NCBI GenBank assembly: GCA_937961455.1
Contig: CALGNN010000036.1
Coordinates: forward strand, 1 to 33,805
DNA from: an uncultured Saprospiraceae bacterium
Lineage (GTDB): Bacteria; Bacteroidota; Bacteroidia; Chitinophagales; Saprospiraceae
Direction of reading: 5' to 3'
Length of the DNA stretch: 33,805 nt
Shown one piece after another: positions 10,034 through 33,612 of the stretch. The position numbers and the translations under genes are program-made. How positions within the stretch are numbered: the first letter of the stretch is position 1; each line of letters starts with the position of its first letter. The notes under the pieces are model-generated. The model worked only from the letters and a program-made list of their open reading frames with translations. It did no database searches and was not told where the DNA came from.

Positions 10034-10072
10034 TAGCGGGTTACACTTGAAAGTATGAGAATAGTTAAATAG

Positions 10073-10111
10073 AAAAAAAAAATAAGCCTGAGTGATTAAC
10101 TCAAGCTTATT
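10073..10111 (-). terminator. Intrinsic terminator of the ribosomal protein cluster
   Basis: On the reverse strand an arm AATAAGC, one mismatch, then TGAGT pairs with ACTCA and GCTTATT around a five-base loop (forward arms 10081-10093 and 10099-10111). A run of eight further T residues follows (10080-10073), extending the TT of the stem. It lies about 50 bases past the rplQ stop and is the only strong terminator between rpsL and carA. Confidence 0.88.
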
Positions 10112-10161
10112 GGATTATTTTTTGTTCAAAAACTAGATCGAGAATAATTTCCCTATGGAGT

Positions 10162-10671
10162 TTATTCTTCTTCGTCTTTAACTACAGCTTTAGCTGTTGC
10201 AGCCGCAGCTGTCGCAGTAGCTGCTGCATCAGATGATTTCTTTCTTCCTCTTCTAGTTCGTTTCTTACCAGATGCTTTACCAGCACCTTCAGCTTTCAAT
10301 TTCAACATGACTTCATTGTAATCTACAAACTCAATCATTGCCATTTCTGCTCCATCACCTTGACGGAAACCCGTTTTAATGATTCTAAGGTATCCACCAG
10401 GTCTATCTCCTATTTTTGGTGCAACTTCAGTGAAAAGTTCGTTGACCGCATGTTTGTTTTGAAGATAACGGAATACAACTCTTCGTGAATGCGTAGAATT
10501 GGTTTTAGATTTCGTAATCAATGGCTCTACATGTGTTCTCAAAGCTTTCGCTTTAGCTAGAGTCGTGTTAATTCGCTTTTCTAAAATCAGTGCGTTGGAT
10601 AGATTTTTTAGAAGGGCAACTCTTGCGCCTCTTTTTCTACCGAGATGGTTATGTTTCTTACCGTGTCTCAT
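10162..10671 (-). CDS. rplQ: 50S ribosomal protein L17 (bL17) with Ala/Lys-rich tail
   Basis: L17 sits near the peptide exit tunnel rim of the large subunit. The N-terminal [20 protein letters not shown] and the later [21 protein letters not shown]-type core are unmistakable. At 169 residues it is longer than the roughly 120-residue core. The last 40 or so residues are a low-complexity extension, [10 protein letters not shown] followed by an Ala/Thr-rich stretch and an acidic end. It is the last gene of the cluster, 59 bases after rpoA and just before the terminator. Confidence 0.97.
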
Positions 10672-29977: not shown

Positions 29978-31690
29978 ATGCTTAAACCGTCACTCACATA
30001 TATTTGTTTAACAATTCTTCTCTTATTTAATTCTTGCAGCTCGGAAGAATCCATTGATCTGATCATCATAAACGGTCATATTGAAACCATGGATGAAGAT
30101 GCTACAGTTTTCGAAGCGCTGGCTGTTGATGATGGAGTAATTATTTATTTAGGTGAAAATCAAGGCGCGTTAGATTTGAAGACTGCATCCACTCAAGTAA
30201 TTGATGCAAAGGACCAGTTTGTAATGCCTGGCTTTATAGAAGGTCACGGGCACTTTTCTGGACTGGGAAGTAGTTTGATGAATTTGAATTTTTTGAAATC
30301 GAAAAATTGGAATGAAATTGTTAAAGCTGTTGAAGAAAAAGTACAAACTGCTGAAGAGGGTGAATGGATTATTGGACGTGGTTGGCATCAGGAAAAATGG
30401 GATGAAGCTCTTGCGAATGAAGTTCATGGGTACCCTTATCATGATGCTTTATCAAAAATTTCTCCTAACAATCCTGTGATGTTAACCCATGCGAGTGGAC
30501 ATGGTTTATTTGCAAATGAAAATGCCATGAAACTTTCAGGGATTAGTAAAGAAACTGGAAATCCAGTCGGAGGAGAAATTGTAAGAGGACCTGAAGGAGA
30601 AGCGATCGGCATGTTTGAAGAGCGAGCTATGGTGCTCATTAGAGCAAAATACCAGGAGTATATTAACAGCCTTTCACAGGAAGATTTAACTGATAGGTGG
30701 TATGAAGGCATAGAGAAAGCTATGGAAGAATGTATCTCAAATGGAATAACTTCTTTTCAAGATGCAGGATCGAGCTACACAGAAATAGAACGCTATACAG
30801 ACATGGCCAATGATGGAGATTTGGACTTAAGACTTTATGCAATGCTGCGACATAATTCTGAAACCATGGAAGGAAATTTATCAGGTTTCCCAATCATTAA
30901 TGAAGGAGATGGTTTTTTCACTTGTCGAGCCATTAAAACTGAACTGGATGGAGCACTTGGATCTTATGGGGCTTGGTTGTTAAAACAATATAGTGACAAG
31001 CAAAACTTCCATGGCCAAAATACTACGAGCATTGAAGAGATGAATAAAATTGCTGATCTATGTATTAAACACGACATGCAACTTTGTGTTCATGCCATTG
31101 GTGATCGTGCGAACAGAGAAGTATTGGATGTTGTGGAAGAAAAATATGCTGTCCATGGAGCAGACAAAGATCGCCGGTGGAGAATTGAACATGCACAGCA
31201 TTTACACCCAGAAGACATTCCGAGATTTAAAGAATTGGATGTAATAGCTTCGATGCAAGGTGTTCATTGCACATCGGATGCACCCTTCGTGACAAAGAGA
31301 CTTGGTAAATTGCGAGCCATGCAAGGTGCCTATGCATGGAGATCACTTCTTGACGCTGGCGCAGTAGTAATGAATGGCACTGATGCTCCTGTAGAAGATG
31401 TGAATCCTTTAGAAAGCTTTTATGCTACTGTAACAAGAACCAGATCTGACAATGGATTTGAATTTTTCCCAGAGCAAAGCCTTTCCAGGCGTGAAGCCCT
31501 TCATTCTTATACGCTTGCTAATGCGTATGGAGCGTTTGAAGAAAAACAAAAAGGTTCTTTAGAGCTTGGCAAATATGCGGACATAACCATATTAGATAAA
31601 AACTTAATAAGTTGTTCAGCTCCTGAAATTCTTGACGCTCGTGTCCAATATACCATCATTGATGGCAAAATAAAATACCAAAAAAATTGA
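29978..31690 (+). CDS. YtcJ-like amidohydrolase, predicted lipoprotein
   Basis: The 570-residue protein is a metal-dependent hydrolase of the amidohydrolase_3 (YtcJ-like) group. Metal-site candidates are H90 and H92 (EGHGHF), K320 (IKTELDG, the carbamylated lysine position), H372 (VHAIGDRAN), H405 (IEHAQHL) and D469 (GTDAPV). The N-terminus LTILLLFNSC is a lipoprotein signal with C20, and the next residues SSEES are polar and acidic, as in surface-exported Bacteroidota lipoproteins. Substrate is unknown; the family acts on amides, N-acyl or cyclic compounds. A 421-base gap follows it. Confidence 0.88.
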   Translation: MLKPSLTYICLTILLLFNSCSSEESIDLIIINGHIETMDEDATVFEALAVDDGVIIYLGENQGALDLKTASTQVIDAKDQFVMPGFIEGHGHFSGLGSSLMNLNFLKSKNWNEIVKAVEEKVQTAEEGEWIIGRGWHQEKWDEALANEVHGYPYHDALSKISPNNPVMLTHASGHGLFANENAMKLSGISKETGNPVGGEIVRGPEGEAIGMFEERAMVLIRAKYQEYINSLSQEDLTDRWYEGIEKAMEECISNGITSFQDAGSSYTEIERYTDMANDGDLDLRLYAMLRHNSETMEGNLSGFPIINEGDGFFTCRAIKTELDGALGSYGAWLLKQYSDKQNFHGQNTTSIEEMNKIADLCIKHDMQLCVHAIGDRANREVLDVVEEKYAVHGADKDRRWRIEHAQHLHPEDIPRFKELDVIASMQGVHCTSDAPFVTKRLGKLRAMQGAYAWRSLLDAGAVVMNGTDAPVEDVNPLESFYATVTRTRSDNGFEFFPEQSLSRREALHSYTLANAYGAFEEKQKGSLELGKYADITILDKNLISCSAPEILDARVQYTIIDGKIKYQKN

Positions 31691-32046
31691 GTAAAGAAAT
31701 ATTAAAATAGCTTGTTTTATCATCTGGCAAAACCAAGTATCTAGTTTTACCGAAAATGGGTTTGAAACTGTGGCATCCACTTATTGTAACGTCTAATAAT
31801 TGGAATCAAAAGGTTTGTCGCTCAAAAATAATACTACAATATAATTTCAAGCTTCACTCATTTTTTCCAAGTAAAAACAAGGCTGGTTATTGAATTTGAA
31901 ATTGTAATAATTTCTATTCATTAGATTTCAATTTTTTGCAGAGGGTTTATGTGTACTCTTAGAAATACTACTAAGACGTTATGTTTTATGCGTGTCATTC
32001 TAAGCCATACCATAACTATGAAACTTTATAGAAGAGCCCTTTGTAT

Positions 32047-32084
32047 GGGGCATACTTTTGATTGTGTAGTATGTCCCTTTTTTT
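32047..32084 (+). terminator. Intrinsic terminator-like hairpin upstream of the SRPBCC gene
   Basis: GGGGCATAC (32047-32055) pairs with GTATGTCCC (32069-32077), nine base pairs including one G-U, around a 13-base loop, and seven T residues follow at once (32078-32084). This is a textbook terminator shape for the forward strand. It lies 357 bases past the amidohydrolase stop and only 28 bases before the next start codon, so it may end an unseen small RNA or act as an attenuator. Confidence 0.7.
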
Positions 32085-32091
32085 ATATTTG
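32061..32091 (+). promoter_or_regulatory. Bacteroidota-type promoter for the SRPBCC-desaturase pair
   Basis: ATTG (32061-32064), a 19-base spacer and TATATTTG (32084-32091) give a full -7 match and a -33 TTG core. The start codon is 20 bases after the -7 box, the same layout as at carA. The -33 box falls in the loop of the terminator-like hairpin and the -7 box overlaps its T-tract, so the inverted repeat could equally be an operator. Confidence 0.6.
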
Positions 32092-32111
32092 ATCCTCAAA
32101 TAAATTTTCTT

Positions 32112-32513
32112 TTGGAAAAAGTCAACATAATCAGCACAATAGGGGGTCCCATAAAAGAAGTAATGTTTTATTTTTCGAATTTAGATGCCTATGCTGAATT
32201 GCATCCAATAATTTATTCCAATCAAACAATTGGAACTAATAAATACTTAATTAGAGAAAGAGCGTTATATATATTACCTATTTCCTATAAAGTTGATGTG
32301 AGTATCAATCAGAAGACGATTAGGTATTTTGCTCGACCTATTGGAATACTAGATTTAGAGATTATTTATAACTTTACATCAGCTAATGAAGTCGAAACAA
32401 AGATTGAAGAGACCATTAGTATTCGTGGTTTCTATTTATTTAGAAAACTTTTGGCTTGGTATATAAAACCCATACATCTAGAACTTCTTGAAAATTTAAA
32501 GAAAAAATTTTAA
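32112..32513 (+). CDS. SRPBCC-like (START/polyketide-cyclase fold) protein, TTG start
   Basis: The 133-residue protein has the order expected of a small SRPBCC lipid- or ligand-binding protein: an opening strand EKVNIISTIGGPIKEVMFYF, where 'ap...v...l.d' is typical, a central set of strands, and a long C-terminal helix (PIHLELLENLKKKF). Identity rests on pattern, not on a catalytic motif. I use TTG at 32112 because no ATG lies between an in-frame stop at 32067 and that point and the -7 box sits 20 bases upstream. It precedes the desaturase gene by 28 bases and is probably co-transcribed with it. Confidence 0.65.
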   Translation: MEKVNIISTIGGPIKEVMFYFSNLDAYAELHPIIYSNQTIGTNKYLIRERALYILPISYKVDVSINQKTIRYFARPIGILDLEIIYNFTSANEVETKIEETISIRGFYLFRKLLAWYIKPIHLELLENLKKKF

Positions 32514-32541
32514 CGTAACATTTGCAGAATTGGTTTAAGAA

Positions 32542-33612
32542 ATGATCGAATCGAATAAAAGTAAGTTTAGCAAAATAGATCAGGAGATTAAAGAGTCCCT
32601 TAAGAATTGGAAAGAGATTTTAGCAAAGTATCAACAACCAGATAACAAAAGGGCTGTTGGGCAGATTATATCTACATTTGTGCCATATGTGAGCCTTTGG
32701 GTTTTAATGTATTTCAGCTTAAGATGGTCTATACTTTTGACTATTGCCTTAGCTATAATCAATGCATTTTTTCTTGTAAGGATTTTTATCATTCAGCACG
32801 ATTGTGGACATCAGTCATTTTTTAAATCTAAGAAGCTAAATAATACGATTGGATTTATTTGCAGTTTCTTTAGTACCATTCCATATAAATACTGGGCTAA
32901 AGTCCATAATCACCATCATGGCCATAATGGTATGTTAGAAGAAGAGCACAGAGATGTTGGAGACATTCCTACACTAACTGTCAATGAATATAGAGCCGCC
33001 AAATGGTATGGAAAATTAGCTTATAGAATTTGGAGATTTCCTGTGGTTACTTTCATTATAGCGCCGATTTATTATTTTATCATTAGCAATCGATTTCCAT
33101 TTTTCAATTTCAAAACTTGGAAAAACATCAAATGGATTCAGCTCAGAAATAATCTAGCAATAGCCGCTGTCTATACCTTACTTGCAGTTTTGATTGGATG
33201 GAAAAAATTCTTGTTGATCCAATTTTCATTGGTAGTATTATTTGGAATCATTGCTTTCTGGTTTTTCTATGTACAACACCAACATGAATTTTCTTACAAG
33301 CACTGGAAGAAGAATTGGTCATTTTTAATTTCTGCAATAAGAGGTGCAACCTTTTATAAGTTGCCTAAAGTATTCCATTGGTTGACTGGAAATATTGGAT
33401 ATCATCATGTGCATCATTTAAATAGCCTTATACCAAATTACAATTTGGCAAGAGCTGTTAAAGAAAATGAGATTCTAAACAAGTACGTTACAAAAGTTAC
33501 ATTTTTAGAAAGTCTTAAAATGATGTTTCACAATCTTTGGGATGAGGAACTAGAAAAAATGGTATCATTCTCAGAATACTACCGTAACGAAAAAATGCGA
33601 ATGGCAGCTTAA
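32542..33612 (+). CDS. Membrane fatty acid desaturase (acyl-lipid type)
   Basis: This di-iron membrane enzyme introduces double bonds into acyl chains. The 356-residue protein has the three histidine boxes HDCGH (86-90), HNHHH (122-126) and HHVHH (288-292), with an extra QHQHE (245-249), and hydrophobic segments around 44-58, 63-84, 100-113, 168-181, 205-219 and 224-243. The box pattern is that of the delta-12/omega-6-like acyl-lipid group, but regioselectivity cannot be read. It follows the SRPBCC-like gene by 28 bases. Desaturases usually adjust membrane fluidity, which would fit temperature or lipid control at the upstream hairpin; that link is speculation. Confidence 0.92.
   Translation: MIESNKSKFSKIDQEIKESLKNWKEILAKYQQPDNKRAVGQIISTFVPYVSLWVLMYFSLRWSILLTIALAIINAFFLVRIFIIQHDCGHQSFFKSKKLNNTIGFICSFFSTIPYKYWAKVHNHHHGHNGMLEEEHRDVGDIPTLTVNEYRAAKWYGKLAYRIWRFPVVTFIIAPIYYFIISNRFPFFNFKTWKNIKWIQLRNNLAIAAVYTLLAVLIGWKKFLLIQFSLVVLFGIIAFWFFYVQHQHEFSYKHWKKNWSFLISAIRGATFYKLPKVFHWLTGNIGYHHVHHLNSLIPNYNLARAVKENEILNKYVTKVTFLESLKMMFHNLWDEELEKMVSFSEYYRNEKMRMAA

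Follow-up and report, generated by a model that had tools for sequence, protein, structure and literature searches.

What occupies the 421 bases of + strand DNA between an amidohydrolase gene and a gene for an SRPBCC-like protein in an uncultured member of the Saprospiraceae, a family of bacteria from sludge and the sea that are uncultured? This gap had been read as having the architecture of an attenuator, and the answer that we have reached is a different one. We think it probable, from the modelled structure and the motifs at its edges, that the gap holds an independent small RNA gene at about 31934-32084, and that the terminator of this gene shares DNA with the promoter of the following SRPBCC-desaturase gene pair. 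Such a gene is of a known kind, of which this is a new example, and the layout is an ordinary one for bacteria.

Which genes surround the locus?

The stretch of DNA that we analysed, called the window here, is 33,805 nt long and makes up one of the 250 contigs of a 4.6-Mb genome. The upstream neighbour of the folded RNA is the amidohydrolase gene (29978-31690, + strand; PF07969, E 9e-93), and downstream, also on the + strand, come the gene for the SRPBCC-like protein (32112-32513, 133 aa, with a TTG start) and that for a fatty acid desaturase (32542-33612; PF00487, E 5.5e-29). The SRPBCC-like protein has no Pfam match of its own and was assigned via its homologues; all three that were tested match Polyketide_cyc2, each below the cut-off, and two of the three match COXG (one at E 4e-4, below the cut-off, and one at E 7e-6, above it). 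It is a divergent protein, with homologues in 12 of 397 other genomes of the family at 24-31% identity. The desaturase scores 330.8 bits against the NCBIfam model for Delta(5) desaturase DesA, below the cut-off of 500, and its closest named relatives, with identity of up to 69%, come from Saprospiraceae metagenome-assembled genomes. No tRNA or tmRNA was found in the window, and searches of plasmid and phage collections for signs of a mobile origin gave no match.

The pairing of these two genes was not found elsewhere when the loci of both were compared, within the sensitivity limit of tblastn. Among 346 frames lying up to 1500 nt upstream of the desaturase at 99 loci (not all of them with the full 1500 nt available, and some places present in duplicate, once from each of two collections), none resembled the SRPBCC-like protein at E up to 10; tblastn for an SRPBCC gene upstream of the desaturase gave nothing at E up to 0.01, in a test that missed 4 of 12 known SRPBCC loci; and no desaturase was detected within about 1.5 kb of those 12 loci. 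The surroundings of the desaturase vary. A SpoU-type methylase relative lies on the same strand at five of 80 named loci (L035, L036, L037, L041, L042) and an rpoC relative is nearby at four of the 80 (L062, L065, L066, L092), and in the window the rpsL, rpsG and EF-G genes are found about 4 kb from the desaturase. At two further loci a distant amidohydrolase, with about 25% identity to that of the window, stands immediately 5' of the desaturase (L079 1229-2902, L083 1234-2907).

Where does transcription end, and where does it begin again?

At the 3' side of the gap there is an intrinsic terminator (32047-32084, + strand), in which a 10-pair stem joins 32047-32056 to 32068-32077 with one G-U pair and is followed by T7; its energy is -14.9 kcal/mol and its pair probabilities are 0.97-1.0. 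A generic terminator scan did not list this hairpin at 32047-32077, because its 11-nt loop exceeds the limit of the scan, and listed instead the weaker GCCC/GGGC hairpin at 32036-32051. Sharing DNA with the terminator is the promoter of the SRPBCC-desaturase pair (32062-32091, + strand), composed of TTG at 32062-32064, a spacing of 19 and the box TATATTTG at 32084-32091, an exact match to TAnnTTTG, as expected of a Bacteroidetes sigma-A promoter. Its -33 core, spacer and box coincide with the loop, the 3' arm and the last T of the terminator, an overlap that the initial annotation had pointed out and that we confirm.

How good is this promoter? In a genome sample of 589 kb (41 stretches, the window included, with 253 upstream regions), TTG-N18-21-TAnnTTTG occurs 11 times in the upstream regions, as against 2.2 times in shuffles and three times on the reverse strand, a five-fold enrichment. 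Six of these 11 motifs end 4-20 bases 5' of a gene, and the present one ends 20 bases before its gene. It is also, by our own definition, the sole full promoter on the same strand to overlap any of the 43 intergenic terminators in the 589-kb sample. In Flavobacterium psychrophilum the TAnnTTTG box is reported to lie at -12 to -5 (PMC9723704), from which we predict a start at about 32096 and, for the SRPBCC-like gene, a leader of 16 nt. The box TACTTTTG at 32053-32060 is also an exact match and lacks a TTG 15-23 bases ahead of it. The promoter motif, with a spacing of 17-22, is found upstream of the desaturase at six of 97 loci, two of the six being the same place.

What does the RNA look like?

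The candidate small RNA gene, about 150 nt long (31934-32084, + strand) and with a GC content of 35%, sits between the frames that end at 31690 and start at 32112, and is overlapped by short mechanical frames only. One of these, a 47-codon frame at 31949-32092, begins near the 5' end of the RNA and continues through the terminator, and bears no sign of being a gene. In the best fold, at -45.6 kcal/mol, most of the RNA forms a closed branched domain (31937-32045, + strand), made up of a closing stem (31937-31948 with 32034-32045), a long arm (31949-32013) and a hairpin (32016-32031), and the terminator at 32047-32084 follows directly 3' of it. Nine pairs of the closing stem (31938-31946) have probabilities of 0.97-1.0, and the innermost two have 0.66 and 0.40.

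This fold of the whole RNA, which is missing from the initial annotation, exceeds what chance would give. None of 200 shuffles was as stable, with a z score of -5.25 from one start and -5.22 from another (the latter for 31934-32084), and smaller sets of 20-40 shuffles gave z of -4.1 to -4.3 for the same stretch; the domain without its terminator (31938-32046) still has a z of -3.81. The reverse strand reaches -30.3 kcal/mol with a z of -2.84, a weaker fold, in keeping with the + strand being the RNA and with a real contribution of its G-U pairs. The 5' edge is sharp, and the energy drops in strength from -44.5 to -28.6 kcal/mol when the start is shifted from 31938 to 31952.

The fold is unusual, not unique. 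In a composition-corrected scan, one of 2244 windows of the same length was as extreme, nearby scan windows that miss the exact edges of the feature fell outside the 25 most extreme, and the upstream domain ranks sixth of 42 sample terminators when each is given its best start. The most extreme fold in the scan of the whole window lies elsewhere, at 10058-10204 on the - strand, and looks like an ordinary strong terminator; it contains the terminator at 10082-10110, behind the ribosomal protein L17 gene and before a carbamoyl-phosphate synthase small subunit gene that has a TATATTTG box ahead of it.

Is it an attenuator?

The reading of the locus as an attenuator began with four short segments that alternate in their complementarity, and here the initial annotation was accurate in its particulars. 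The segments CCATAC (32005-32010), GTATGG (32043-32048), CATAC (32051-32055) and GTATG (32069-32073) are exactly where it placed them, GCCC and GGGC do lie at 32036-32039 and 32048-32051, and the 16-codon frame at 31981-32031 (+ strand) reads MFYACHSKPYHNYETL*, with three Tyr and two His codons, so that the segments, the frame and the terminator of an attenuator are all present. The architecture itself finds no support. When the terminator arm was kept and the 72 nt upstream were shuffled, an equivalent four-segment pattern arose in 89 of 5000 trials, and in 253 of 5000 when the shuffled stretch was 112 nt; across the genome sample the pattern is seen at three of 42 terminators, the present one included. 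It is near chance level, and the alternation does not clearly go beyond it.

The energies point the same way. Forcing segments 2 and 3 to pair gives -27.6 kcal/mol, 18 worse than the best fold, and forcing segments 1 and 2 to pair gives -29.4 kcal/mol, 16 worse, and in the best fold a different domain takes up segment 1 together with the 5' part of segment 2. The antiterminator alone amounts to -2.5 kcal/mol, against -14.9 for the terminator. The codon richness of a leader peptide is likewise lacking, the three Tyr and two His codons being scattered with no run, and the frame, which we reject as a leader peptide, has its ATG in and beside an apical loop of the folded RNA. The downstream genes, SRPBCC-like and desaturase, are unconnected with the supply of Tyr or His, and a full promoter for them stands 3' of the terminator arm. 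On the energies and the background counts we have rejected the attenuator as a candidate, and a leader-peptide translation attenuator using the 16-codon frame keeps in our estimate almost no chance of being right. There is a lesson here for annotators, which is that alternating short complementary segments in AT-rich DNA need both an energy test and a background count before an attenuator is called.

Is it a gene of its own?

The 5' edge is where a separate gene would have to declare itself, and a weak promoter-like site, TTG-N17-TAGATTTC (31902-31929, + strand), does lie ahead of it. The site predicts a start near 31934, which is 3 nt 5' of the outermost pair of the fold, and it is suggestive only, with one mismatch in its box (31922-31929) and a short 17-nt spacer. 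Between 31690 and 32111 ten near-consensus boxes agree with TAnnTTTG at 5 or more of its 6 defined positions, and only two of them, at 31922 and 32084, have a TTG at 17-21. The frequency of boxes of at least this quality that have a TTG so placed is 0.00146 per upstream base, and the chance of finding one within five positions of the edge is about 0.7% by our own arithmetic, before allowing for the choices made. We infer that the promoters at 32062-32091 and 31902-31929 are used and that the RNA accumulates.

The main competitor of a separate gene is a long 3' UTR, in which the hairpin would simply serve to terminate the amidohydrolase gene, or the domain would be an RNA released from the 3' end of its mRNA by cleavage. 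The RNA is indeed on the same strand as the amidohydrolase, neither terminator scan lists another + strand terminator between that gene and 32036, no strong promoter stands 5' of 31934, and some terminators in the sample sit 149-530 nt behind a same-strand gene. However, among the 32 sample terminators that lie behind a same-strand gene, the usual distance is 25-55 nt (21 terminators, with 3 nearer and 8 farther, at 82-530 nt), and the stem of the present one starts 357 nt past the last base of the amidohydrolase gene, with 356 bases between, making it the third farthest of the 32. Distance from the gene is, alone, weak evidence for a separate transcript; the sharp 5' edge of the fold and the promoter-like site that fits it also argue against the 3' UTR, which we judge unlikely. 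A riboswitch-like leader, with 31937-32045 sensing something and its closing stem competing with the terminator, is a more intricate proposal. It draws on GCCCU (32036-32040), which pairs either in the closing stem or with GGGGC (32047-32051), two mutually exclusive states of which the latter would open the terminator. The GCCC/GGGC pairing alone is worth -9.1 kcal/mol, and the best fold for a transcript ending at 32062 uses it (-31.0), but in the full-length RNA the state that contains it reaches -35.2 and falls 10.4 kcal/mol short of the best fold. The full promoter for the genes would moreover sit 3' of the switch, and the RNA has no Rfam riboswitch match and no relatives, all of which makes the riboswitch improbable in our eyes.

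We have also considered this competition for GCCC/GGGC between closing stem and terminator arm as the working part of a new, lineage-specific sensor RNA, and rate that as very improbable. Were it true, the hairpin would either end the transcript before a built-in second promoter or permit it to run into the SRPBCC-desaturase genes, which would thus be expressed by two routes, under the control of the RNA or directly. There is finally the palindrome, which might act in DNA as an operator, with a regulator binding the inverted repeat at 32047-32077 that spans the -33 core and spacer. The repeat does overlap the promoter, but it includes a G-T step that pairs in RNA and not in DNA and has the T7 run on one side, and CATACT-N5-15-AGTATG is found at five places in the genome as against two for the reversed control, every spacing being different. 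We see only a slim chance for the operator, and an operator family was rejected as a candidate because the repeat was not found again in the genome at this spacing. The initial annotation had itself offered two alternatives to its attenuator; one of them, a small RNA whose 3' end adjoins a promoter, has turned out the best supported, and the other, the operator palindrome, has gained little support.

How might the locus work, and why would it matter?

If the RNA is a gene of its own, RNA polymerase would start near 31934 and the transcript would fold into one closed branched domain at 31937-32045, after which the hairpin and T-run at 32047-32084 would end both the small RNA and any transcript arriving from the amidohydrolase gene. 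The SRPBCC-desaturase pair would be transcribed from its own promoter, with a start at about 32096, the last T of the terminator lying a dozen bases ahead of this next expected start. As for what the RNA might do, our guess, by analogy, is base-pairing with mRNAs made elsewhere, because this is the commonest role of such RNAs. There is no sign of pairing with the neighbouring genes, whose starts, by simple duplex energy, rank 435 (SRPBCC), 324 (desaturase) and 362 (amidohydrolase) of 457. A separate RNA gene, if real, would add a previously unrecognised small RNA gene in the Saprospiraceae, and would furnish an example of tight packing of terminator and promoter, the last T and the expected start being just those 12 bases apart.

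Does the RNA have relatives?

No convincing relative of the RNA was found, and its structure is one computed from a single sequence. A DNA search of 59 other relatives, none from the genus of the window organism, gave two short matches (G044 and G005) at 31838-31892, outside the RNA; both fall inside unrelated open frames or at their ends. Over 397 other genomes of the family, with two candidates scored per genome only, there were 14 matches at E up to 0.01 per genome, where about 4 would be expected at face value; they are 20-65 bases long, and 11 of them fall in the AT-rich terminator/promoter part. A covariance model, R1, built from the single sequence and scoring 182 bits against itself, found matches at E up to 1 in three of the 397 when the filters were strict and in one of 35 others when they were laxer, and no score outside itself was above 24.8 bits. 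The match in G001 is without the closing stem, and those in G285 (19.9 bits) and G375 (19.6 bits) align the terminator, have a closing stem of other sequence and skip the interior. Nothing credible came from R1 on 63 and 69 further loci, the first set (11 amidohydrolase, 12 SRPBCC and 40 of 109 desaturase loci) giving one match at E 5 and the remaining 69 desaturase loci one at E 0.66. No Rfam family reached its gathering threshold across the window, and in 31690-32542 there were three sub-threshold matches at E up to 10, none of them a riboswitch. That no relatives were found counts little against an RNA gene, because in Bacteroides thetaiotaomicron 27 of 49 high-confidence intergenic sRNAs were strain-specific (PMC7366714).

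The two weak R1 matches in G285 and G375 led to a conserved RNA-like element in four genomes of the Saprospiraceae genus g85, an element that is not a named family (L159 1498-1632, L158 1498-1632 and L197 1498-1640 on the - strand; L198 1496-1636 on the + strand). Upstream of it stands TTTGGCAYANGCTTTG, continuing as TTTGC in three of the four, a motif that we take to resemble the sigma-54 promoter consensus. The element consists, in order, of a closing stem, a small hairpin, invariant CCCCCC and TACGGGG, which could form a pseudoknot, and a terminator in which one pair, judged by eye, is changed on both sides. Beyond the element, L158 and L159 have a Fapy glycosylase gene on the opposite strand, and L159 has an FBPase gene before the element. 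Nothing in Rfam matched the element above threshold. Its own model, R2, has weaker matches in five other genera, the best being G080 at 35.6 bits, found no match in the genome of the window at E up to 0.1, and gives the present feature 14.6 bits, with E 0.17 in a search of 48 kb. The element and the present RNA are alike in having a closing stem directly 5' of a terminator of similar sequence, and match weakly in both directions, at chance level (19.6-19.9 bits one way and 14.6 the other); the element differs in being shorter, in its interior and in the promoter-like motif upstream. We claim no kinship between them.

How does it compare with known systems?

Attenuators of the trp and his type combine a short frame, alternating complementary segments and a terminator before genes for amino acid biosynthesis. 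The present site resembles them in its short frame, its alternating segments and a terminator ahead of genes, and departs from them in having no codon run, a weak antiterminator, a promoter past the terminator arm and genes of unrelated function. Riboswitches that terminate transcription place a closed branched domain directly before the terminator, and the present RNA shares with them such a domain at its terminator and a possible competition between closing stem and terminator arm; unlike them, it matches no known aptamer, has no conservation that we could find and is followed by a promoter that would bypass the switch.

Closer parallels come from within the phylum. In Flavobacterium psychrophilum, in whose phylum TAnnTTTG promoters dominate, the independent transcribed region Rfp18 is reported to be a folded small RNA, as is predicted for the present one; Rfp18 has been measured and is conserved outside its species, whereas the present RNA is predicted and was not found elsewhere (PMC9723704). 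The sRNAs of B. thetaiotaomicron belong to another family of the phylum, and several of them are reported to have extended unfolded regions (PMC7366714), in contrast to the present RNA, which is predicted and compactly folded in its model. Like the present RNA, however, they are intergenic and end in an intrinsic terminator, and the GC content that they have on average, 35% (PMC7366714), is also that of this single RNA.
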